Shown in pieces: positions 26,901 to 38,640 of a stretch of DNA of 64,000 bases. The notes under the pieces are model-generated. The model did not search any database. It saw nothing but the letters and a program-made list of their open reading frames with translations, and was not told where the DNA came from. The DNA is from Enteroscipio rubneri (lineage in GTDB: Bacteria; Actinomycetota; Coriobacteriia; Coriobacteriales; Eggerthellaceae): NCBI RefSeq assembly GCF_002899715.1, contig NZ_PPEK01000001.1:62001-126000 (forward strand), in the 5' to 3' direction. The translations under genes and the position numbers were made by a program. Position 1 is the stretch's first letter, and each line of letters opens with the position of its first letter.

Positions 26901-27512
26901 TTAGTGGCACGTCTCACAATCGTAGATGTCTGCATGGTGGCAGTTCTGGCATGCTTGAGGCGCTCTCTCCAGAACGTCGGTGGATTCATGTGCGCTATGG
27001 CAGTCGGTGCAGCCAATCTTCGAGTGCCCTTTGTTCTCCGGCAATGCATGGGGGTTCATCGTTGTTTGGTTGCTGTCGACGAGGGCGATGCTGTCACGTG
27101 TCCTATCGGCGAGGTCGGCCTTGTCGTGGCAGCCCGTGCAGGCGTCGTTCTCAACTGCGGTGTGCATGAGCTCTGCGGTGGGCTTGGCATTCCGGATGCC
27201 TGTATGGACGGTTGTCAGCTCCGGGGCGTCATCATGGCAGTTCACGCAGTTCGATGGCGCATCGGAAAAATCCGTGCAAGCAGAGGCGGCTGCTGTTTTC
27301 GCCTCGAGGGAATGGCACGGTGCGCACTCGAGCTCCGGTTTCCAAGTAAAATCTTCTTGCAGGGAGACCTGTTCGACCGCCACGATTCCGGGCATCAACG
27401 CTTTGTCCGCAGATGTCGATTGACAGCCGATTAAAACAGTTGCAACGAGCAGGCAGAATACGAAACCCGCCATGACGGGCGCTTCCGGTTTCCTCCCTGC
27501 GTTTCTCCGCAT
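26901..27512 (-). CDS. Multiheme c-type cytochrome lipoprotein
   Basis: 203 residues. Signal peptide with lipobox VLIGC, then six CxxCH heme sites: CAPCH, CVNCH, CTGCH, CTDCH, CQNCH and CETCH; the last is the final five residues before the stop. Many additional His can serve as distal ligands. It is probably an outer-face electron carrier between a membrane quinol oxidase and a reductase. It lies 5 bp after the slipin gene in a GntR-slipin-cytochrome operon and opposite a ferredoxin-NrfD-flavoprotein operon, so the flavoprotein at 30834 is the obvious electron acceptor (inference). An internal Met (14th residue) could also be the start. Confidence 0.88.
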   Translation of the reverse strand: MRRNAGRKPEAPVMAGFVFCLLVATVLIGCQSTSADKALMPGIVAVEQVSLQEDFTWKPELECAPCHSLEAKTAAASACTDFSDAPSNCVNCHDDAPELTTVHTGIRNAKPTAELMHTAVENDACTGCHDKADLADRTRDSIALVDSNQTTMNPHALPENKGHSKIGCTDCHSAHESTDVLERAPQACQNCHHADIYDCETCH

Positions 27513-27517
27513 TTCGA

Positions 27518-28459
27518 TTATCCTTGTTTCGCGAAGAGATCCTTGAGGTCCTTCATGGTTCCGGCATTAAATCCCTCGCTGAAGGAACTGGGAACCACGA
27601 TGAGATTGTTGCCGCCGCCCTCTTTCACGCTTTCGTTCACCATGCTTGCCATACGTATCTGGAGCGCGATCTCATCCTGGCGATAGAGCTCTGCCGCCTC
27701 CACGTACAGCTCTGCGATTTGGTTTTCGATCTCCGCGAGGATCACGCGCGCATTGCTTTCCTGTTGAGCCTGCGCCTCCCGCGACATCGCATCCTGCAGA
27801 TTCTCGGGAATGAGGATGTTGCGGATTTCGACGGATAGGATCGAGATGCCCCAATCACTCGTTTTCGCGCTCAGCGTTTCCCGCAGTTCGGAATCGAGCT
27901 GCGAACGTCGCGTCGAAATATCGGCAAGGTTGATTCTGCCAATGGCATCGCGCAACGCCGTTTGCGCCGACCATGAAACGGCGTTGGGGTAGTTGTCCAC
28001 TTCGCACCATGCCTTTTGAGGGTTCACTACCATCCAGAAAAGAACGGCATCGATATCGGTTGGCACGAGATCGGCGGTAAGCGCCTCTTCCGCAGAGAAC
28101 GGCGTTACGATGATACGCTGGTCAACGCGCAGTGCGGCCGATTCAAGGAAAGGGATGGTGAAGAAGATGCCCGGTCCTTTCACTCGATTGAAGCGTCCCA
28201 GGCGCAGCACGACTACTTTCTCCCATTGTTGCGTGACGTGCACCGTCAATAAGGCGGTAACCAGATAAGCGAGGGCGATGAGCACCAACCCGAAGTGCCA
28301 GCCGTTATACAACACGAGGCCTAAGGGAAGAGCGGAGACGATGAACGTGAAAATCTCGAAAAGCCAAACGCCCATACGGGAAGAAAGGGGTTTCTTGGAG
28401 CGCACGGCGACGGGCAATCTGCTCTTTCGCTTTGCGTTCTTCCTCTTCTTACCCGACAC
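27518..28459 (-). CDS. SPFH/Band 7 membrane protein (slipin-type stomatin homologue)
   Basis: 313 residues. Basic N-terminus, two hydrophobic segments (about 30-75), then a Band 7 domain (QQWEKVVVLRLGRFNRVKGPGIFFTIPFLE) and a C-terminal coiled coil (REAQAQQESNARVILAEIENQIAELYVEAA). Slipins assemble on membranes and organise protein complexes. The first codons overlap the end of the GntR gene by 11 bp. The position between a regulator and a multiheme cytochrome suggests it stabilises a respiratory assembly. No NfeD partner protease is present. Confidence 0.88.
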   Translation of the reverse strand: MSGKKRKNAKRKSRLPVAVRSKKPLSSRMGVWLFEIFTFIVSALPLGLVLYNGWHFGLVLIALAYLVTALLTVHVTQQWEKVVVLRLGRFNRVKGPGIFFTIPFLESAALRVDQRIIVTPFSAEEALTADLVPTDIDAVLFWMVVNPQKAWCEVDNYPNAVSWSAQTALRDAIGRINLADISTRRSQLDSELRETLSAKTSDWGISILSVEIRNILIPENLQDAMSREAQAQQESNARVILAEIENQIAELYVEAAELYRQDEIALQIRMASMVNESVKEGGGNNLIVVPSSFSEGFNAGTMKDLKDLFAKQG

Positions 28460-28898
28460 GCTGCGCCCTTTCCCCCATAGGAGCGTTCTTTGAATTCGAG
28501 TCGATCGTAATGCAGACGCCCAGGCAATCCGCCACGATTCGCACGACCTCTTCGGCGGTCATGCCCAGCTGGAGAAGCTTGGAGACGTATTCGGACGTTA
28601 TCATATGCGGCTCGCCCTCGAATGCGATAAAGCGCGAATCGTCGAGGTCGGCGACATGGGATCCCCGACCGGCCTGCACTTCGATAAGCCCGCTGCCTTC
28701 CAGCTCGTGATAGACCTTGTTCACGGTGTGGTAGTTGATGTCCAGCTGAACGGCCAGCTCTCGTACGGTCGGAAGCTGATCGCCCGGTTTGTACGTGCCC
28801 GATGCGATGAGATATGCGAGGCGTTGCTTCAGCTGCACCCAGATTGGGATATCGCTCTTCTTGTCGATCGAAAAGGAGTCGAACGGGTTCATGGACAA
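28449..28898 (-). CDS. GntR-family transcriptional regulator, YtrA-like
   Basis: 149 residues. N-terminal winged helix: IPIWVQLKQRLAYLIASGTY then PGDQLPTVRELAVQLDINYHT, with a short C-terminal region of about 70 residues, as in the YtrA subfamily rather than FadR types. ATG 28892 is an alternative start. It leads the slipin-cytochrome operon and faces the ferredoxin-NrfD-flavoprotein operon. The minus-strand promoter TTGATT-17-TACTAT lies at 28923-28951. It probably controls both arms, with a candidate operator at 30757. Confidence 0.9.
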   Translation of the reverse strand: MSMNPFDSFSIDKKSDIPIWVQLKQRLAYLIASGTYKPGDQLPTVRELAVQLDINYHTVNKVYHELEGSGLIEVQAGRGSHVADLDDSRFIAFEGEPHMITSEYVSKLLQLGMTAEEVVRIVADCLGVCITIDSNSKNAPMGERAQRVG

Positions 28899-28922
28899 CC
28901 CTCTCTTTTGCCTGTTGATGAT

Positions 28923-28951
28923 ATAGTATTCTATTGCTTGCGAACAATCAA
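28923..28951 (-). promoter_or_regulatory. Promoter of the GntR-slipin-cytochrome operon
   Basis: On the minus strand, TTGATT (28946-28951) and TACTAT (28923-28928) are spaced 17 bp. The -10 region overlaps the small inverted repeat ATAG-TATT-CTAT (28923-28934), which includes one TTCTAT half-site like that of the palindrome at 30757. Confidence 0.55.
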
Positions 28952-28969
28952 CAGCCGCCCCCGGCTGCC

Positions 28970-28991
28970 ATCCTGAGCGAAATCGAAGGAT
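28970..28991. repeat. ATCCT...AGGAT interrupted palindrome, possible intergenic repeat
   Basis: CATCCTGAGCGAAATCGAAG followed by GA resembles short intergenic repeats of the form ATCCTGAGCGAAG...AGGAT seen in many unrelated genomes (recollection, not checked). One related but diverged stretch may lie at 10012-10070. Confidence 0.35.
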
Positions 28992-29044
28992 CTTTACAAG
29001 AAGCGCATGTACGACACTCGATTGGAGGAGTGGGAGTGGATCGT

Positions 29045-29689
29045 ATGAAGCCGGCGCGTTCGGTCACGCGGCGTTCCGCATTGGCGGCGTGCGTCGCAGC
29101 GGCGTCAACAGCAGCGCTTTCCTCCTGCGTTCCCTCCGGCTCGGCCGCTTCCTCCGAGGCTCCCAAGAAGGGGCTTGCCCAATACGGTTTCTGGATGGAT
29201 TCAAGGGTCTGTGCCGGATGCGCTTCGTGTGTGGCGGCCTGCCGCGAGGCAAACAGCACGCCCGATGACTGCGAAGCGCGCAGAAGGATTATCTCGTACG
29301 TTTTTGATCGAGGGGAGTCGAGGTTCGTCTCGGTTTCGTGCATGCATTGCGCACAGCCCGCCTGCGTTGCCGCCTGCCCTGCTGGAGCCATAACCAAGCG
29401 CGCAGACGGAATTGTGGAGGTAGATCAGAGCCGGTGCATCGGGTGCAAGTACTGCCATGCGTCTTGCCCTTTCGGGGTGCCGCATTACACGTCGCTCGGC
29501 ATGGACAAGTGCGACTGCTGCCTCGGTGCCGGTATAAAACCCGGTAAGGATCCATACTGTGTACAGGCTTGTCCGGCGAAAGCGCTGCAGTATGGAAAAC
29601 TCGAAGACCTGCATCGGCGGGCAGAAGAGGCGGTGGGGAAGGTTGGGCTGCTCGAATCGCCTACCGAGCCTTCGTTCTATCTGACTTGA
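29045..29689 (+). CDS. Tat-exported 4Fe-4S ferredoxin subunit (DmsB/NrfC-like)
   Basis: 214 residues from ATG 29045. Tat-type signal SVTRRSALAAC with a later Cys (LSSC). Four cysteine clusters of the DmsB/NrfC type: CAGCASCVAAC, CMHCAQPACVAACP, CIGCKYCHASCP and CDCCLGAG...CVQACP, enough for four 4Fe-4S centres. It would relay electrons from the NrfD-type membrane protein encoded 45 bp downstream to an exported acceptor. Unlike cytoplasmic DmsB of typical complexes it has its own export signal. An upstream GTG at 29036 is a possible alternative start. Confidence 0.88.
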   Translation: MKPARSVTRRSALAACVAAASTAALSSCVPSGSAASSEAPKKGLAQYGFWMDSRVCAGCASCVAACREANSTPDDCEARRRIISYVFDRGESRFVSVSCMHCAQPACVAACPAGAITKRADGIVEVDQSRCIGCKYCHASCPFGVPHYTSLGMDKCDCCLGAGIKPGKDPYCVQACPAKALQYGKLEDLHRRAEEAVGKVGLLESPTEPSFYLT

Positions 29690-29734
29690 CCTTTCATGAA
29701 GGCGTCTGATGGCTGAAACCGGCAAGGATCGCAC

Positions 29735-30706
29735 ATGATCGAACTGCAAACGGCATGGGGATGGCAGGTCGCGCTCTACCTCTTTCTCGGGGGGCTGGGC
29801 GCGGGAACGTTCATCGCCGCAACCTTGCTGGGATTCGTGCGCCGCAAGCGGCATCGACGGGCGCTTGCGGCTTCTTACTGGATAGCCGTCGCGTGCATCG
29901 CGGCGGGGCTGCTTTCGCTACTCTCCGAGGTCGTTCATCCCGGCAGGGCGTTGCTCATGTGGCAGAGCTTCAGCCACCTTGCCTCATGGATGGCGTTGGG
30001 CGCGTGGGCGGCGCTTGCGGCTCTGGTCGTTTTTTCTGTCACCGCGTTCCTTACGACGAGGAACACATCGGAATTGCTTTCCGGAGTGTGGGAAGAGCAT
30101 CCTGGTTTGCGCAAAAGGCTGCGAACAGTTTTTTCGCTGGTCGGCCTCGTCCTCGCGTTTTTCATGGCGTTGTATACGGGGATGCTGCTCAAGGCAGCCC
30201 CGGGCATTCCCTTCTGGAATTCCTGGCTTCTGCCGTGTCTGTTCGTTGCAAGTGCGCTGGGAGCAGGCTTGAACGTTGTTGCCTCGCTTGCGGTTCTCAC
30301 AGGTAGCGCTCGAAAGGTTTCACGCACACGGCGCCGGCTTTTCGCGGGCATCGTTATCGGCGTGGTGGCCGTCGAGAGCGCGCTGCTGTTCTTCTACTTG
30401 GCGAATATGCTGCAAGGCGGATCGGGCGCGCAGCCCTCCCAGCAATTCGCCGCTCAGGTTTCGGCCGAGTTGCTCCTGTCCGGCAGCTGCTCTTTGCCGT
30501 TCTGGGGGCTTGTGATCGCGGGGGGTCTCGTCGCGCCGCTCATCTTATCGGTATTGAGCCTGTTCCTGAGGGGAAGAGCAGGGTGGAGGATCCTTGCGAT
30601 TGGCACCATGCTTACGGTGGTAGGCGATTGCGCCCTTCGTTTTCTTTTCCTTCATGTAGGCATGGGCGCAGACTACATAGGGCAAGCGCTGCTCTTGATA
30701 TTGTAA
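29735..30706 (+). CDS. NrfD/PsrC-type quinol-interacting membrane subunit
   Basis: 323 residues with eight or nine hydrophobic helices. N-terminal WGWQVALYLFLGGLGAGTFI is the NrfD family signature. These proteins bind menaquinol and pass electrons to a ferredoxin-like partner, here the gene just upstream. AAGGA lies before the ATG. The flavoprotein at 30834 follows, with its own promoter beginning 7 bp after this stop. Confidence 0.9.
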   Translation: MIELQTAWGWQVALYLFLGGLGAGTFIAATLLGFVRRKRHRRALAASYWIAVACIAAGLLSLLSEVVHPGRALLMWQSFSHLASWMALGAWAALAALVVFSVTAFLTTRNTSELLSGVWEEHPGLRKRLRTVFSLVGLVLAFFMALYTGMLLKAAPGIPFWNSWLLPCLFVASALGAGLNVVASLAVLTGSARKVSRTRRRLFAGIVIGVVAVESALLFFYLANMLQGGSGAQPSQQFAAQVSAELLLSGSCSLPFWGLVIAGGLVAPLILSVLSLFLRGRAGWRILAIGTMLTVVGDCALRFLFLHVGMGADYIGQALLLIL

Positions 30707-30713
30707 AAGCATG

Positions 30714-30742
30714 TTGACAGGGGAATATTGAGAGTCTATGAT
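30714..30742 (+). promoter_or_regulatory. Strong consensus promoter for flavoprotein 30834
   Basis: TTGACA (30714-30719), 17-bp spacer, TATGAT (30737-30742). Predicted start near 30749. Confidence 0.85.
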
Positions 30743-30756
30743 GCAGCAATCGGGAA

Positions 30757-30774
30757 GTTCTATATATATAGAAC
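30757..30774. promoter_or_regulatory. Perfect 18-bp palindromic operator candidate
   Basis: GTTCTATATATATAGAAC is a perfect palindrome beginning about 8 bp after the predicted transcription start, the classic place for a repressor. The GntR regulator at 28449 is the nearest candidate protein. The AT-only core stands out sharply from the GC-rich background. Confidence 0.7.
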
Positions 30775-30833
30775 GATGGATAAATGGGGAGCCCGATGGA
30801 ATTGCTGCATCGAAAACGGGGAAAGGGGTAAAG

Positions 30834-32738
30834 ATGGACGTTTCAAGAAGGGACCTGTTGAAAGGCGGAGCCGTTTTAGGGGCTGGTCTCGCCGTAAGCG
30901 CCGGGTTGGCTACGGGCGCTGCCGTTTTGCCGGGTTGCACTCCTTCATCGACGAAGCCGGGCGAGGCGGATTCGAGCGACGCCGTTTCGACGGGCGGCGC
31001 CTCGGGTAATCCGAACGACTATTATCAAACGGGCATAGACTGGTTGGGCGCGCCTCCCGAGATCGACGAAGCCGATGTCGCCGAGACTTTCGACGGAGAC
31101 ATCGTCGTCTGCGGCGGAGGAAACGCAGGAATCCAAGCCGCCTTGGCTGCAACGGAGGGCGGGGCGAAGGTTCACGTGCTCGAATCCTCGTCTGAGAAGT
31201 TCCGGAAGGTCAAGGGCAGGGACGTGGGCCACGTCAATTCGCAGTGGCTCATCGATCAGGGCTTCGGCCCCTACGACGAGGGCGAGATCGTCAACGAGTT
31301 CATGATGAGGTGTGCGGGCAGGAACAACGCCGAGATTATCAAGCGCTTCGTCTACAACTCGGGCGAGACGTTCGACCATATGATCAGTCTGGTCAACTGG
31401 CCGGACGATCGGATCAAACCGGTCAAGCGCTCGGATCCGAACGTCAGCCCTATCGATCCCAGCTCGATGTACGTTCCGCAGGCTGCAGGAGTTCTGGACG
31501 GGCCGGTGGAATACCCGGTCATGCAGGGCGGGTTTAAAACGTGGGCATCCACAGCTTCCGTGGTAGGGGAGATCAGCCATGTCATCGGCGATGAGTCCGG
31601 CATCGAGTCGAACGACTACTCTCGCCTTGACGAGATCCAGCAGTTCTCCATCCTGAAGAGCCAGGAGCTGGGCGCCGAGTGGCATTACGAGCAGCGTGCG
31701 CGCCGCCTCATCACCGACGATTCCGGCGCCGTTGTCGGGGTGTACGCCGAGAACGCGGACGGAACGTACACGCGCTACAACGCGTCGAAGGGCGTCATCC
31801 TCTGTGCGGGCGACTTCGGCGGCAACGTCGATATGGCCTGGGCGCTGCTCGCCGAGATATCGGAGTTCGCGGCGCGCGCGGGCAAGGGGCCGGAGGACAT
31901 CCGCGCCGAGAGCTTCTGCGAGGGCGACGGCCATAAGATGGCCTGCTGGGTTGGCGGCCAGATCGAGCCGCTTCCGAGGCCCATCCTCAACTACCACTGG
32001 ACGGGCGCTCCTTGGGGCACGGTTCCCTATCTGTGGCTCAATAGTGAGGGGAAGCGCTTCATGAACGAGGCCGCCGTCACCAATGCCTGGGCGAACAGCC
32101 TCAGGCAGCCGCTCGGCCCGATCTGCACCATTTCCGACAGCAAGTGGTTCGATGTCTTGAAGAGGGGTGGCATCGAGCTCGGCGCCCCCAATGCCGGCAG
32201 GCAAGAGTACATAACGGAGCTTAAGGAAGACGTCGACAACGTGCCGGTGGGAGACCCTAACGGAGGCAGATGCCGCGACAGCGTCGAGTGCGAGCGCCAG
32301 CCGCATATCGTGTACAAGGCAGATACCATCGAGGAGCTGTGCGGTTTCATGGGATTTTCCGACGAAGCGGCAAAGGAGGCGGCAGCTTCGGTCGAACGCT
32401 ACAACGAGCTCTGCAAGCAGGGACACGATGCGGATTTCGACAAAGATGACAAGTTCATGTCTCCCATCGACGAGCCTCCCTACATCGGCTCCTTCTTCGA
32501 GAACGAGCGCTGGAGCGGCATAGGCCTCGTGTGCTTCGCCGGTCTGCTCACCGACGGCCATCTGCAGGTCTTGGACGGCGACGGGAAGAAGATTCCAGGA
32601 CTCTGGGCGGCGGGGAACTGCCTCGGCGGACGCTTCGGCACGGGGTACGTAACCCCGATAGCGGGCAATTCCGTGGGCATGGCGATCACGCACGGCCGTG
32701 TTGCGGGGAAGGTTGCCACCGGACAAGAAGTGCGTTAG
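30834..32738 (+). CDS. Tat-exported FAD-dependent reductase of the respiratory island
   Basis: 634 residues from ATG 30834, just after GAAAGGGGTAAAG; the frame is open 32 codons upstream but those lie on top of the promoter and operator. Tat motif SRRDLLKGG, hydrophobic stretch, Cys in VLPGC (probable lipoprotein). FAD fold IVVCGGGNAGIQAALAATEG (about 85-105) and C-terminal GGRFGTGYVTPIAGNSVGMA. It belongs to the fumarate-reductase/3-oxosteroid-dehydrogenase flavoprotein family; substrate unknown. The adjacent ferredoxin, NrfD and multiheme cytochrome genes can supply electrons from menaquinol. A hairpin at 32790 ends the transcript. Confidence 0.88.
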   Translation: MDVSRRDLLKGGAVLGAGLAVSAGLATGAAVLPGCTPSSTKPGEADSSDAVSTGGASGNPNDYYQTGIDWLGAPPEIDEADVAETFDGDIVVCGGGNAGIQAALAATEGGAKVHVLESSSEKFRKVKGRDVGHVNSQWLIDQGFGPYDEGEIVNEFMMRCAGRNNAEIIKRFVYNSGETFDHMISLVNWPDDRIKPVKRSDPNVSPIDPSSMYVPQAAGVLDGPVEYPVMQGGFKTWASTASVVGEISHVIGDESGIESNDYSRLDEIQQFSILKSQELGAEWHYEQRARRLITDDSGAVVGVYAENADGTYTRYNASKGVILCAGDFGGNVDMAWALLAEISEFAARAGKGPEDIRAESFCEGDGHKMACWVGGQIEPLPRPILNYHWTGAPWGTVPYLWLNSEGKRFMNEAAVTNAWANSLRQPLGPICTISDSKWFDVLKRGGIELGAPNAGRQEYITELKEDVDNVPVGDPNGGRCRDSVECERQPHIVYKADTIEELCGFMGFSDEAAKEAAASVERYNELCKQGHDADFDKDDKFMSPIDEPPYIGSFFENERWSGIGLVCFAGLLTDGHLQVLDGDGKKIPGLWAAGNCLGGRFGTGYVTPIAGNSVGMAITHGRVAGKVATGQEVR

Positions 32739-32789
32739 GACGATCGTCGGCTACCTGCCAGAAAAAGAACAGCGAACGTGCCATCGACC

Positions 32790-32819
32790 TGGAGCTGCAT
32801 CGTTTTCGATGCAGCTCCA
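32790..32819 (+). terminator. Hairpin after flavoprotein 30834
   Basis: Perfect 13-bp arms TGGAGCTGCATCG and CGATGCAGCTCCA around TTTT, 52 bp after the stop. No trailing U tract. Confidence 0.65.
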
Positions 32820-33031
32820 TCTGCGCGCGGTACGCTCGGCATGCGCACGCGTAACGCATGGGAGTTTCGAGTGCACCCCAAGCGCATCGCGCCGCTGTTC
32901 CCTCTTGCGTCGTTCAGCCGTTGCGGCACCGTAGCTCCCCGGTGGTCGTGTCCGCCCTGCGCCGTGCGTAGAATGATGCGGACAAGACGCGCGGGCGCGG
33001 CCCGTGCCGCTCGGAAGGAAAGGAGCGATCG

Positions 33032-35154: not shown

Positions 35155-36888
35155 TTACTCGGCGCCGGCCAGCTTACGGCCGGTCACGTAGCCGAAGGTG
35201 AGGCACGTGCCGCCCAGGTTGTGACCAGGGAAGTGCGTGGAGTAGCAGTTGTTGTACATGTCGCCCACCGTGGAGCCCAGGCAGTACAGGCCCTCGATGA
35301 CCTCGTCGTCGGCGTTCATGACCTGCAGGTTGTCGTTGCAGCGGATGCCGCCGGTGGTGGACAGGAACCACGGCGTGCACTCGATGCCGTAGAACGGGCC
35401 CTTCTTGATGGGCAGCAGCAGCTCTTTGCGCTTGCCGAATTCCTCGTCGACGCCCGCGTCGCAGTAGCCGTTATACGCCTCGACGGTCTTGAGCGTCTCA
35501 TCCTTCGGCAGGCCCAGCTTCTCCACCAGCTCCTCCACGGTGTCGGCCTTGATCATCTTCACCGGGATGTCGCCCGAGCCGTTCATGTTGATGGTGCCGG
35601 GGCCGTCCACCACGGTCTGCCAGTAGGCGCGCACGTCGTCGGGCGTGTCGAACACCTTCGGGCCGTCCACGTAGCGGTGGTTCTGCCACTGCGGCTCGTT
35701 CGCGTAGTCGTCGTCCCAGATGGCGAACGCGTGGTTGCCTTTCTGGTGCATGAGCGCCAGGCCGCCGTGCGAGATGACGTTGTCCTCGTTGTCGTAGCGG
35801 CGGCCGTCCTCGTTCACCATGAGGCCCTGGAACGCGCGCACCTGGCGCGTGATGGAGCGCCACTGGAAGCAGAAGATCATGGGCGCGGGCGTCTCGCTCT
35901 TGTCGACCGCGGCGCCAGCCCAGTACGCCATCTTGTGGCCCGAGCCGTCCCAGATGCCGCCGAACTCGGTCTGATGCGCCGCCCAGGGGATGAACTTTTC
36001 CAGCATGTCCTTGTCTTGGCCGAAGTCGCCCGTTGCGATAACCACGCCGTTCTTGCCGTTGACGCGAACGTAGCCGTCGCCGCTCTTCGCTATGACGCCC
36101 ACCACCTTGTCGCCGTCCTTCGCGAGCTGCTTCGCTTCGGTGGAGTAGCGGATGTCGACGCCGGCTTTCTCGCAGTACAGCGCCATGTTCGCGCACACGT
36201 CCTGCTGCGGGTTGTCGTCGGGGCCCTTGCCGTTGGGACCGTCGAGGAACTCGTGCGTGCCGGGGAACTCGCCGTTGATGTTCTCGGGGTCCTCGTACCA
36301 ATGCTCCATGACGGGGGTGAGGTCGTCGCCGCCCACGGAACTGGCCGTGGTCATGCGGTCGATGAGCCAGTCCATGGCCTCGCCCGAGCGGTTGAAGTGC
36401 AGCATCCACTTGCGACCGTCCACGCGGTAGGAGTGGTAGCCCATCATGCGCTTGTAGCGCTGGGCCACTTCTTCGACGGAGCACGCGTAGCCCTTCTCCT
36501 TCGTCAGCTTCGAGTTCATGGCGTAGATGGAGCCGCCGCGACCGATGACGTGGTCCATGCGCTCGATCATGACGACATTCGCGCCGTTCTCGGCCGCCGA
36601 GAGCGCGCAGCACAGGCCCGAGAATCCGGCACCGATGACCACGATGTCGGCGTCCACGGTTTCGGTAATGTCGCTTTCAGGAATGGGGTCGGGTGCGACC
36701 TCGAAATCGTACGCGCCGCCGCCCTTGCTGTCGGAACCCGACGACCCTGCCGAGCCGGACTGAGGCTGCGCAGCGCAGCCGGAAAGCGCGCCCACGCCCG
36801 TGACGGCGACCGCACCTGCGGCACCGGTGGCGAGCGCACCCTTCAAAAAGCTGCGCCGGTCCATGTTCAGAATGCCGTTGTCTTTCAT
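35155..36888 (-). CDS. Tat-exported FAD-dependent reductase paired with a membrane LuxR regulator
   Basis: 577 residues from ATG 36888, which has GGAGGAAGGG upstream; the frame is open 30 codons further but without signal-peptide logic. Tat motif MDRRSFLKGALATG and Cys in ALSGC (probable lipoprotein). FAD fold IVVIGAGFSGLCCALSAAEN (about 85-105), C-terminal GLYCLGSTVGDMYNNCYSTH. Fumarate/urocanate-reductase-like; substrate unknown. A LuxR-type membrane regulator is divergently encoded 213 bp away, so induction by its substrate through that protein is likely. Confidence 0.88.
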   Translation of the reverse strand: MKDNGILNMDRRSFLKGALATGAAGAVAVTGVGALSGCAAQPQSGSAGSSGSDSKGGGAYDFEVAPDPIPESDITETVDADIVVIGAGFSGLCCALSAAENGANVVMIERMDHVIGRGGSIYAMNSKLTKEKGYACSVEEVAQRYKRMMGYHSYRVDGRKWMLHFNRSGEAMDWLIDRMTTASSVGGDDLTPVMEHWYEDPENINGEFPGTHEFLDGPNGKGPDDNPQQDVCANMALYCEKAGVDIRYSTEAKQLAKDGDKVVGVIAKSGDGYVRVNGKNGVVIATGDFGQDKDMLEKFIPWAAHQTEFGGIWDGSGHKMAYWAGAAVDKSETPAPMIFCFQWRSITRQVRAFQGLMVNEDGRRYDNEDNVISHGGLALMHQKGNHAFAIWDDDYANEPQWQNHRYVDGPKVFDTPDDVRAYWQTVVDGPGTINMNGSGDIPVKMIKADTVEELVEKLGLPKDETLKTVEAYNGYCDAGVDEEFGKRKELLLPIKKGPFYGIECTPWFLSTTGGIRCNDNLQVMNADDEVIEGLYCLGSTVGDMYNNCYSTHFPGHNLGGTCLTFGYVTGRKLAGAE

Positions 36889-37016
36889 TGCGAATCCCTT
36901 CCTCCCTTGCGGTGTTCGCGGCATGTCCTTCGGACTTGCCGCTCGACCGACGCCCTCCGCGCCGGTCGATGGGGGCACCCTAGCATGACGCGTCGATGCG
37001 TTTCGTCCCCCCGCGG

Positions 37017-37057
37017 CAGGGAAAACGGCGTTTTCCCTGTTTTCACCCTACAGGGTG
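37017..37057. promoter_or_regulatory. Two adjacent palindromes between flavoprotein and membrane LuxR gene
   Basis: First: CAGGGAAAACG-G-CGTTTTCCCTG (11-bp arms, 37017-37039). Second: CACCCT-AC-AGGGTG (37044-37057). They lie in the divergent promoter region and are good candidates for the binding site of the LuxR protein at 37102. Confidence 0.6.
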
Positions 37058-37101
37058 AGACGTTGAGCGGTATGCTATGCGAAAGGAGAGAAGGGGAGGT
37101 C

Positions 37102-38640
37102 ATGCCGAACGATCAGGTTCGCACGCTTTTCAACGCTCCGAACGAGCGTCGTAGCGTGGTAGCGGGTATCGTGCAGTCTGGCGCGGGACGCGGACGCATC
37201 GCCTTGACGATGGCGTGCTACACAGTGTGGATGGTCGCCTGCTGCTCCGGCCCGGCCGTGGCCGTGCAGCAGGAGCCGGGCCTTGGCGCGGAGGGGGCGG
37301 GGCTGCCAGCATGGATGGGGCCGTTGGCTGTGATGGCTGTGGCCAGCCTGATCATCGCGCTGTGGTTCAAGCGTACGAGGAAAGTGCCCGAGGGAGCTTC
37401 CTGGCTCATGGCCCTCGCGTCCGTCATGACCTTGGGCTCGGCGCTCCACTTGGTCTGGGCGCTTGATAGGTCGCTGCCCCTGGGCGCCGACATGGCGCTT
37501 TACGTTGCTATGAGTGTGCTCGTTGGGATCGGAGCGGCGCTGTTTCGCGTGGAAATCGATCGGGTATTCGGTTGGATAGGCACGCAGCAAACACTGTACC
37601 AGGGCATGATAGGAACAGCGGTGGCCATTGCGGTCTTCGTGTTCTGCTCGTCTGCGGGCGACTCCGGTCAGGCGCCCGTGGCGCTCTACGGGCTCGCGCT
37701 CGCCCTGCCGTTCGCATCCCAAGCTCTTTTGCGCCATGTGGTTCGCGGGTTTCCTCGCAGCCGGTACTTCGCGCATGGCAAGGACGTGCCGCTGCCGTTT
37801 CCCGCTACATTCGTCGCCACATCAGGCGTGCAGGGCGTCGCAGCCGGCATGCTGTACATGGGCCTGTTCCTCTACGGCGGGGGCATAGTGTTCGGCTCGG
37901 TTGAGATACTGGCCGGCCAGCTTGCGGCGGCGACGTTGCTGCTCGCCACGCTCGTGTTTCTGCGCATGGACTTCAATCGCCTCATCTACAAGGTGGCGTT
38001 TCCTTTTGCGGCGGCAGGGTTCGTGCTGCTTGCCGCCGCTCCGGCGTTCCAGACGATCGGCGTCATGGTGCTCATGGCCGGCTTCTGCTATCTCGATCTC
38101 GTGTTGTGGAGCTTGGGCGCGTGCCTGATGAAGAACATGGGCCTGCCGGCCACCTGGATAGCCAGCTGCCCGGGCGCGGCGCTGTTCTTCGGGGTGGTTG
38201 CCGGAGGGCTGCTTGCCGCTCTGCTGCTGGATGGTCGGGTGCTCGGCCAAGCGCTCGTGCTTGGGAGCTTCGTTGCCTGCTTTCTGCTTGCGGCGGCGTT
38301 ATTCCTTTCGAGCGGCAGCAACTTGAAGTATGGATGGGGGACGGTGCAGCCGGGGGAGGGAGGGCCGGAGATGGGCGAGCTTGCCGGCGTAGCTCGCTTC
38401 TCCGCGATAGAGCATGGTCTGACGCAGCGCGAGAGCGAGGTGATGGTGCTGCTTGTGCGGGGCAAGGCGCGGCGTGCGATCTGCGAGGAGCTCATGGTGT
38501 CGCCCGATACCGTGAAAACCCACGTGCGTGCCGTGTACCGCAAGTTCGACGTGCACTCCCAGCAGGAGCTCATCGATTATGTCGTACGAGAGCGGGAAAG
38601 CCTCGCCCCCGATGATTCAGAGCGACTGCTCGGCACGTGA
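37102..38640 (+). CDS. Membrane-spanning LuxR-family transcriptional regulator
   Basis: 512 residues from ATG 37102 (GGAGAGAAGGGGAGG upstream). The frame stays open far upstream across the antisense of the flavoprotein gene, which is a GC-rich shadow. About twelve hydrophobic segments (residues 30-420) replace the usual sensor, then a LuxR HTH (LTQRESEVMVLLVRGKARRA to DTVKTHVRAVYRKFDV). This architecture is that of a large regulator family described in Eggerthella lenta, thought to sense substrates at the membrane and control the neighbouring reductase. The divergent flavoprotein at 35155 is the presumed target. Confidence 0.88.
   Translation: MPNDQVRTLFNAPNERRSVVAGIVQSGAGRGRIALTMACYTVWMVACCSGPAVAVQQEPGLGAEGAGLPAWMGPLAVMAVASLIIALWFKRTRKVPEGASWLMALASVMTLGSALHLVWALDRSLPLGADMALYVAMSVLVGIGAALFRVEIDRVFGWIGTQQTLYQGMIGTAVAIAVFVFCSSAGDSGQAPVALYGLALALPFASQALLRHVVRGFPRSRYFAHGKDVPLPFPATFVATSGVQGVAAGMLYMGLFLYGGGIVFGSVEILAGQLAAATLLLATLVFLRMDFNRLIYKVAFPFAAAGFVLLAAAPAFQTIGVMVLMAGFCYLDLVLWSLGACLMKNMGLPATWIASCPGAALFFGVVAGGLLAALLLDGRVLGQALVLGSFVACFLLAAALFLSSGSNLKYGWGTVQPGEGGPEMGELAGVARFSAIEHGLTQRESEVMVLLVRGKARRAICEELMVSPDTVKTHVRAVYRKFDVHSQQELIDYVVRERESLAPDDSERLLGT

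Follow-up and report, generated by a model that had tools for sequence, protein, structure and literature searches.

According to the survey by Suvorova et al. (2015; PMC4494728), most regulons of the YtrA subfamily of GntR proteins comprise one ABC-transporter operon controlled through one site, and a divergent arrangement is very seldom seen; because of this, the regulon that we propose below is atypical. YtrA sites are long, with GT and AC lying far from the centre, according to that survey and to a study of YtrASa from Sulfolobus acidocaldarius (PMC6746942). The latter study has YtrASa repressing its own operon, which includes a membrane protein, and one further locus. In Eggerthella lenta, membrane LuxR activators of the 10-12-TM type drive the reductase-type enzymes studied in PMC9734109.

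The locus described here shares features with each of these systems. Like the YtrA subfamily in PMC4494728, it has a short GntR protein and a proposed local regulon, and some of its sites, though only a part, show the long AT-rich pattern in which GT and AC stand well away from the centre: GT-N14-AC occurs in an 18-bp palindrome and GT-N16-AC in 6 of 15 sites (two of the five sites called F2 below and four of the five at the GntR promoter). Unlike the regulons in that survey, the one proposed here joins a flavoprotein reductase with a divergently arranged SPFH/cytochrome operon, and relatives carry two sites at one promoter. The likeness to YtrASa is a site over the transcription start with extra half-sites around it and, as proposed here, repression of both self and a further locus, but YtrASa is archaeal, has a 14-bp core, and works with different promoter machinery. 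The E. lenta regulators come from the same bacterial group and are likewise local to reductase-type enzymes; according to PMC9734109, however, they are membrane-bound activators, whereas the protein here is a soluble, short GntR regulator. Among the open-access papers searched, none on this GntR regulator in Eggerthellaceae was listed.

Results

The window, by which we mean the whole stretch of 64,000 nucleotides analysed, contains two divergent groups of genes around a GntR-family regulator. On the minus strand lie genes for a small multihaem c-type cytochrome (26901 to 27512), an SPFH/Band 7 membrane protein (27518 to 28459), and the regulator itself (28449 to 28892), with gntR and the start of the SPFH gene overlapping by 11 bases. 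On the plus strand lie genes for an NrfC-like 4Fe-4S protein (29045 to 29689), an NrfD-like membrane subunit (29735 to 30706), and a Tat-exported FAD-dependent reductase (FAD_binding_2; 30834 to 32738), which is presumed to be the regulated gene, most likely starts at the ATG at 30834, and bears the Tat motif SRRDLLKG. An ABC-transporter operon, which is typical of the YtrA subfamily though not obligatory, is not among these neighbours. The locus brings together an SPFH protein and a respiratory reductase.

The regulator is 147 aa long and YtrA-like, and we propose that it is a repressor. Its match to Pfam GntR (E value 6.4e-16; 58.2 bits against a cut-off of 27) indicates an N-terminal GntR winged helix-turn-helix, and residues 7 to 125 match GntR chains of 125 to 134 aa from the PDB over nearly their full length. 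Its length and these matches to short chains fit a C-terminal domain of YtrA type, about 50 aa long and with two predicted helices.

Among 138 genomes of the family, a GntR orthologue (at least 68% identity) was found in five: the window's own genome (G000), G085, G040 (an uncultured Gordonibacter), G062 (of the same genus as the window), and G087 (Candidatus Rubneribacter avistercoris), four of the five being fairly close relatives. The next GntR matches listed were at about 50% identity or less. All six genes are kept in four of the five (own genome, G085, G040, and G062), where the flavoproteins are 87 to 93% identical to that of the window. In G087 the first five genes are retained and the body of the flavoprotein is another one (28% over a part), but the promoter and first codons still match those of the window (35 bases at 94%). 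On contig C30 of G087 (L047:6140-6520), the promoter, leader, and first 12 or so codons (MDVSRRDLLKGG) are close to the window's reductase and the remainder is distantly related. It looks as if the enzyme in G087 had its catalytic body replaced while promoter and signal peptide stayed in place. The arrangement of gntR and the SPFH gene (27518 to 28892 in the window) with the cytochrome gene behind them is kept in all five genomes, with SPFH proteins 83 to 92% identical in the four relatives. Elsewhere in the window, at 35155 to 38640, a second flavoprotein reductase gene on the minus strand faces a plus-strand frame whose C-terminal part we read as membrane LuxR-like. A flavoprotein reductase with a membrane LuxR regulator is the usual pairing in the group.

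The reductase gene has a consensus promoter of its own on the plus strand (30714 to 30742), which could be aligned in four relatives and reads TTGACA (30714 to 30719), a 17-bp spacer, and TATGAT (30737 to 30742). We regard it as an internal operon promoter because it starts just past the nrfD stop codon, the end of which (30706) it follows at a distance of 8 bases. With the predicted +1 set 7 bases after the -10 element, at 30749, a perfect 18-bp palindrome, GTTCTATATATATAGAAC (30757 to 30774, on neither strand in particular), spans +9 to +26; its right half is TATAGAAC (30767 to 30774). We call this proposed main operator F2. The original prediction described just such a promoter with a palindrome 8 bp past the expected start, and all of these elements are in place.

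The palindrome was also said to be unlikely by chance, a claim that needs qualifying. In a window of such composition, 0.41 perfect palindromes of at least 18 bp and any composition are expected and 1 was found, so length is not the argument. However, GTTCTATATATATAGAAC has no further match in the window when up to three mismatches are allowed (shuffles give an expectation of 0), it surpasses in length the five other perfect palindromes of at least 14 bp, none of which is AT rich, and its 16-bp core has a single exact match in the 2.83-Mb genome. A genome search with the palindrome, suggested as a way to define the regulon, yielded that one exact copy and by this criterion no wider regulon. 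The next best matches in the genome lie in AT-rich DNA, differ at 2 and 3 positions, and were rejected as further members; one (G000:C11) sits between frames that we read as ribonuclease P protein-like and DnaA-like, and the other is G000:C12. Near matches with up to 2 mismatches are scattered over 35 of the 138 family genomes, and by coordinates only those of the own genome and G085 are at the reductase locus. TATAGAACRATNR is too frequent to be diagnostic by itself, occurring in 33 of the 138 genomes, and two of its matches that were inspected (in G083, and a second copy in G085) lie inside or at the edge of open frames.

What is conserved at the reductase promoter is the right half of the palindrome and not the symmetric palindrome of the prediction. 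In the alignment, all five promoters share the -10 element, ATCGG at the predicted start, and TATAGAAC; the -35 element is TTGACA in four and TTAATA in G087. The left half reads GATCTAT in G085, GATATAT in G062 and G040, and has another sequence in G087. Full 18-bp symmetry is nearly private to the own genome, with one mismatch in G085 and no conservation in G062, G040, or G087. A second, upstream copy position, F1, lies over the -35 element and spacer (30706 to 30728, plus strand, located by matrix ranks). It is present in G085, G062, G040, and G087 as ATAGAAC directly behind the -35 element (in G085, ATAGAAT and then ATAGAAC). In the window F1 is eroded to AGGGGAAT, whereas the downstream copy is the perfect palindrome, which may compensate for the eroded one.

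The regulator gene has a promoter of comparable layout on the minus strand (28923 to 28951; TTGATT at 28951 to 28946, a 17-bp spacer, and TACTAT at 28928 to 28923), aligned in five genomes. Over its spacer lies GTATTCTATTGCTTGCGAACAAT (28926 to 28948, plus strand), a proposed autoregulatory operator that is conserved in the five genomes with GAACAAT invariant. A site filling the promoter spacer is the usual layout of autorepression. The prediction had pointed here to a TTCTAT half-site, which is indeed in the spacer (28929 to 28934), but only in the own genome; relatives have TTATAT or TTATAA. The suggestion of autoregulation stands better than the half-site from which it was drawn: the reductase and GntR promoters share a motif above a composition-matched null, and its signal is TAT-N7-GAAC(AAT) rather than TTCTAT.

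The comparison was made with a matrix built from the reductase-promoter sites of other genomes only, the eroded F1 of the own genome being left out of training. Of 127,956 positions in the window, ranks 1 and 2 were the palindrome on its two strands, the GntR-promoter site ranked 3rd, and the eroded F1 ranked 11th. The GntR-promoter site ranked 5th of 21,958 in G085, 8th of 22,958 in G062, 5th of 24,686 in G040, and 2nd of 21,958 in G087, and the GntR-nrfC intergenic region was the best target outside the reductase promoter in five of five loci (11 to 12 kb). Because both intergenic regions are AT rich, the matrix columns were permuted 400 times; AT-richness alone makes the intergenic regions good targets (null median ranks 1 to 6), and the result in all five loci was matched in 0.5% of the permutations (null 0.005). 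The reciprocal matrix, from the GntR sites, gave a weaker result, with target ranks of 2, 2, 1, 1, and 2 matched in 4.5% of permutations (0.045). For G000, G085, G062, G040, and G087 in turn, it ranked F2 at 19, 13, 2, 2, and 1677 and F1 at 947, 4, 3, 3, and 3. With ranks of 24 and 1677, F2 of G087 scored poorly with either leave-out matrix.

Upstream of gntR genes, scores of a reductase-promoter matrix from all five genomes exceeded 10 bits for 5 of 5 orthologues versus 1 of 25 paralogues (Fisher p 4e-5), a control that is not composition matched, as many paralogue upstreams are GC rich or coding; the one paralogue scored 18.4, above four of the five orthologues. The strict core TAT-N7-GAAC occurs in 11 of 15 sites, and GAAC in 13. 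TAT-N7-GAAC-RAT, a pattern chosen after these sites had been seen, has 4 exact occurrences in the own genome versus 2.4 expected by chance: two are the reductase and GntR promoters, one is inside a long open frame, and one is GC rich and not clearly placed. As a negative control, flavoprotein homologues in 9 genomes that are without the locus (48 to 54% identity) gave best upstream matrix scores of -6.8 to 4.8 bits.

Discussion

In our view, the neighbouring short GntR protein probably runs a local switch that also regulates itself, with the palindrome as its main operator. Comparison of the loci supports local repression with autoregulation by a YtrA-type GntR regulator, and from it we infer that the neighbouring protein is the binder and that its effect is repression. 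The idea of an operator bound by GntR, as originally put forward, is upheld to the extent that comparison can uphold it, by the motif shared above the null and by the locus kept in five genomes.

How such a switch might work can be outlined. The divergently encoded, YtrA-like GntR protein would bind TATAGAAC-type sites. At the reductase gene it would sit just downstream of the start, and in relatives it probably binds over the -35 element and spacer as well; in this way, it would keep RNA polymerase from starting at the promoter or moving off it. Bound to the spacer of its own promoter, it would repress gntR together with the downstream SPFH and cytochrome genes, and a signal would release it. 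Repression was first envisaged as a roadblock, which is too narrow a wording. With a dimer at +9 to +26, the blocked step could be initiation, clearance, or early elongation, and the additional -35/spacer site in relatives favours occlusion of polymerase. The lac operator O1 is likewise palindromic and lies a short way past the start site of the promoter that it regulates, but it is bound by a repressor of another family. The proposed switch is of an ordinary kind, and what is new is the putative operator.

The sites might instead be operators of another regulator, such as a different one among the own genome's 8 GntR matches (E at most 1e-10), particularly as the specificity of the neighbouring GntR protein is a prediction. 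We consider this unlikely: the sites are seen at loci that have this GntR orthologue, its own promoter included, and the nine distant flavoprotein homologues that are without the locus have weak matches upstream.

Alternatively, the conserved leader could act as RNA, forming a hairpin by which the mRNA is stabilised or regulated, with the palindrome as no more than its apical stem. The palindrome is flanked on the plus strand by an inverted repeat whose 5' arm, GATGCAGCAATCGGG (30740 to 30754), contains an ATCGGG that begins at the predicted +1 and whose 3' arm is CCCGATGGAATTGCTGCATC (30792 to 30811); ATCGGG pairs with CCCGAT, extended by TGCAGC with GCTGCA. Hairpins fold in this region in all five leaders, with folding-energy (MFE) z scores of -4.5, -1.2, -1.6, -4.8, and -2.1 from the -10 element and -1.2, -1.3, -1.5, -1.9, and -2.1 from +1. 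RNAalifold gave a negligible covariation term (-0.12), in part since the 3' arm was misaligned, and because of this the pairing of the arms was compared with that of shuffled 3' arms. In that test, which treats related sequences as independent, p was 0.001, 0.001, 0.013, 0.001, and 0.087 (the last for G087) with the untranscribed part included and 0.03, 0.03, 0.08, 0.01, and 0.05 from +1. By our reading of the alignment, the outer arm in G040 also changes in step (TGCG/CGCA). The outer arm, however, is upstream of +1, so that only transcripts reading through from nrfCD would contain it; G062 and G040 lack the apical palindrome stem, and Rfam has nothing credible in 28000 to 33000. Moreover, ATAGAAC recurs in the untranscribed spacer of the four relatives, which points to binding at the DNA level. 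A leader working chiefly as RNA is therefore improbable in our estimate, and the hairpin is possible as an addition to the operator rather than as the main function. Were the leader used doubly, as a GntR operator in DNA and as arms folding around that operator in RNA, which we regard as quite improbable, one overlapping element would set both promoter repression and mRNA fate, and especially the read-through nrfCD mRNA, which alone contains the full arms, would be affected. Finally, a chance palindrome in an AT-rich promoter would fit the number of palindromes expected by length and the poor conservation of the symmetry, but strict conservation of TATAGAAC and the motif in common with the GntR promoter make chance very improbable.

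If there is a GntR switch with the palindrome as its main operator, the locus defines an operator and a two-promoter regulon for a GntR regulator in Eggerthellaceae. The regulator would then be a soluble repressor, another means of control than the membrane LuxR activators that are known to act on reductases of this bacterial group. Ultimately, the operator would provide a reporter for finding the substrate of an orphan Tat-exported reductase.
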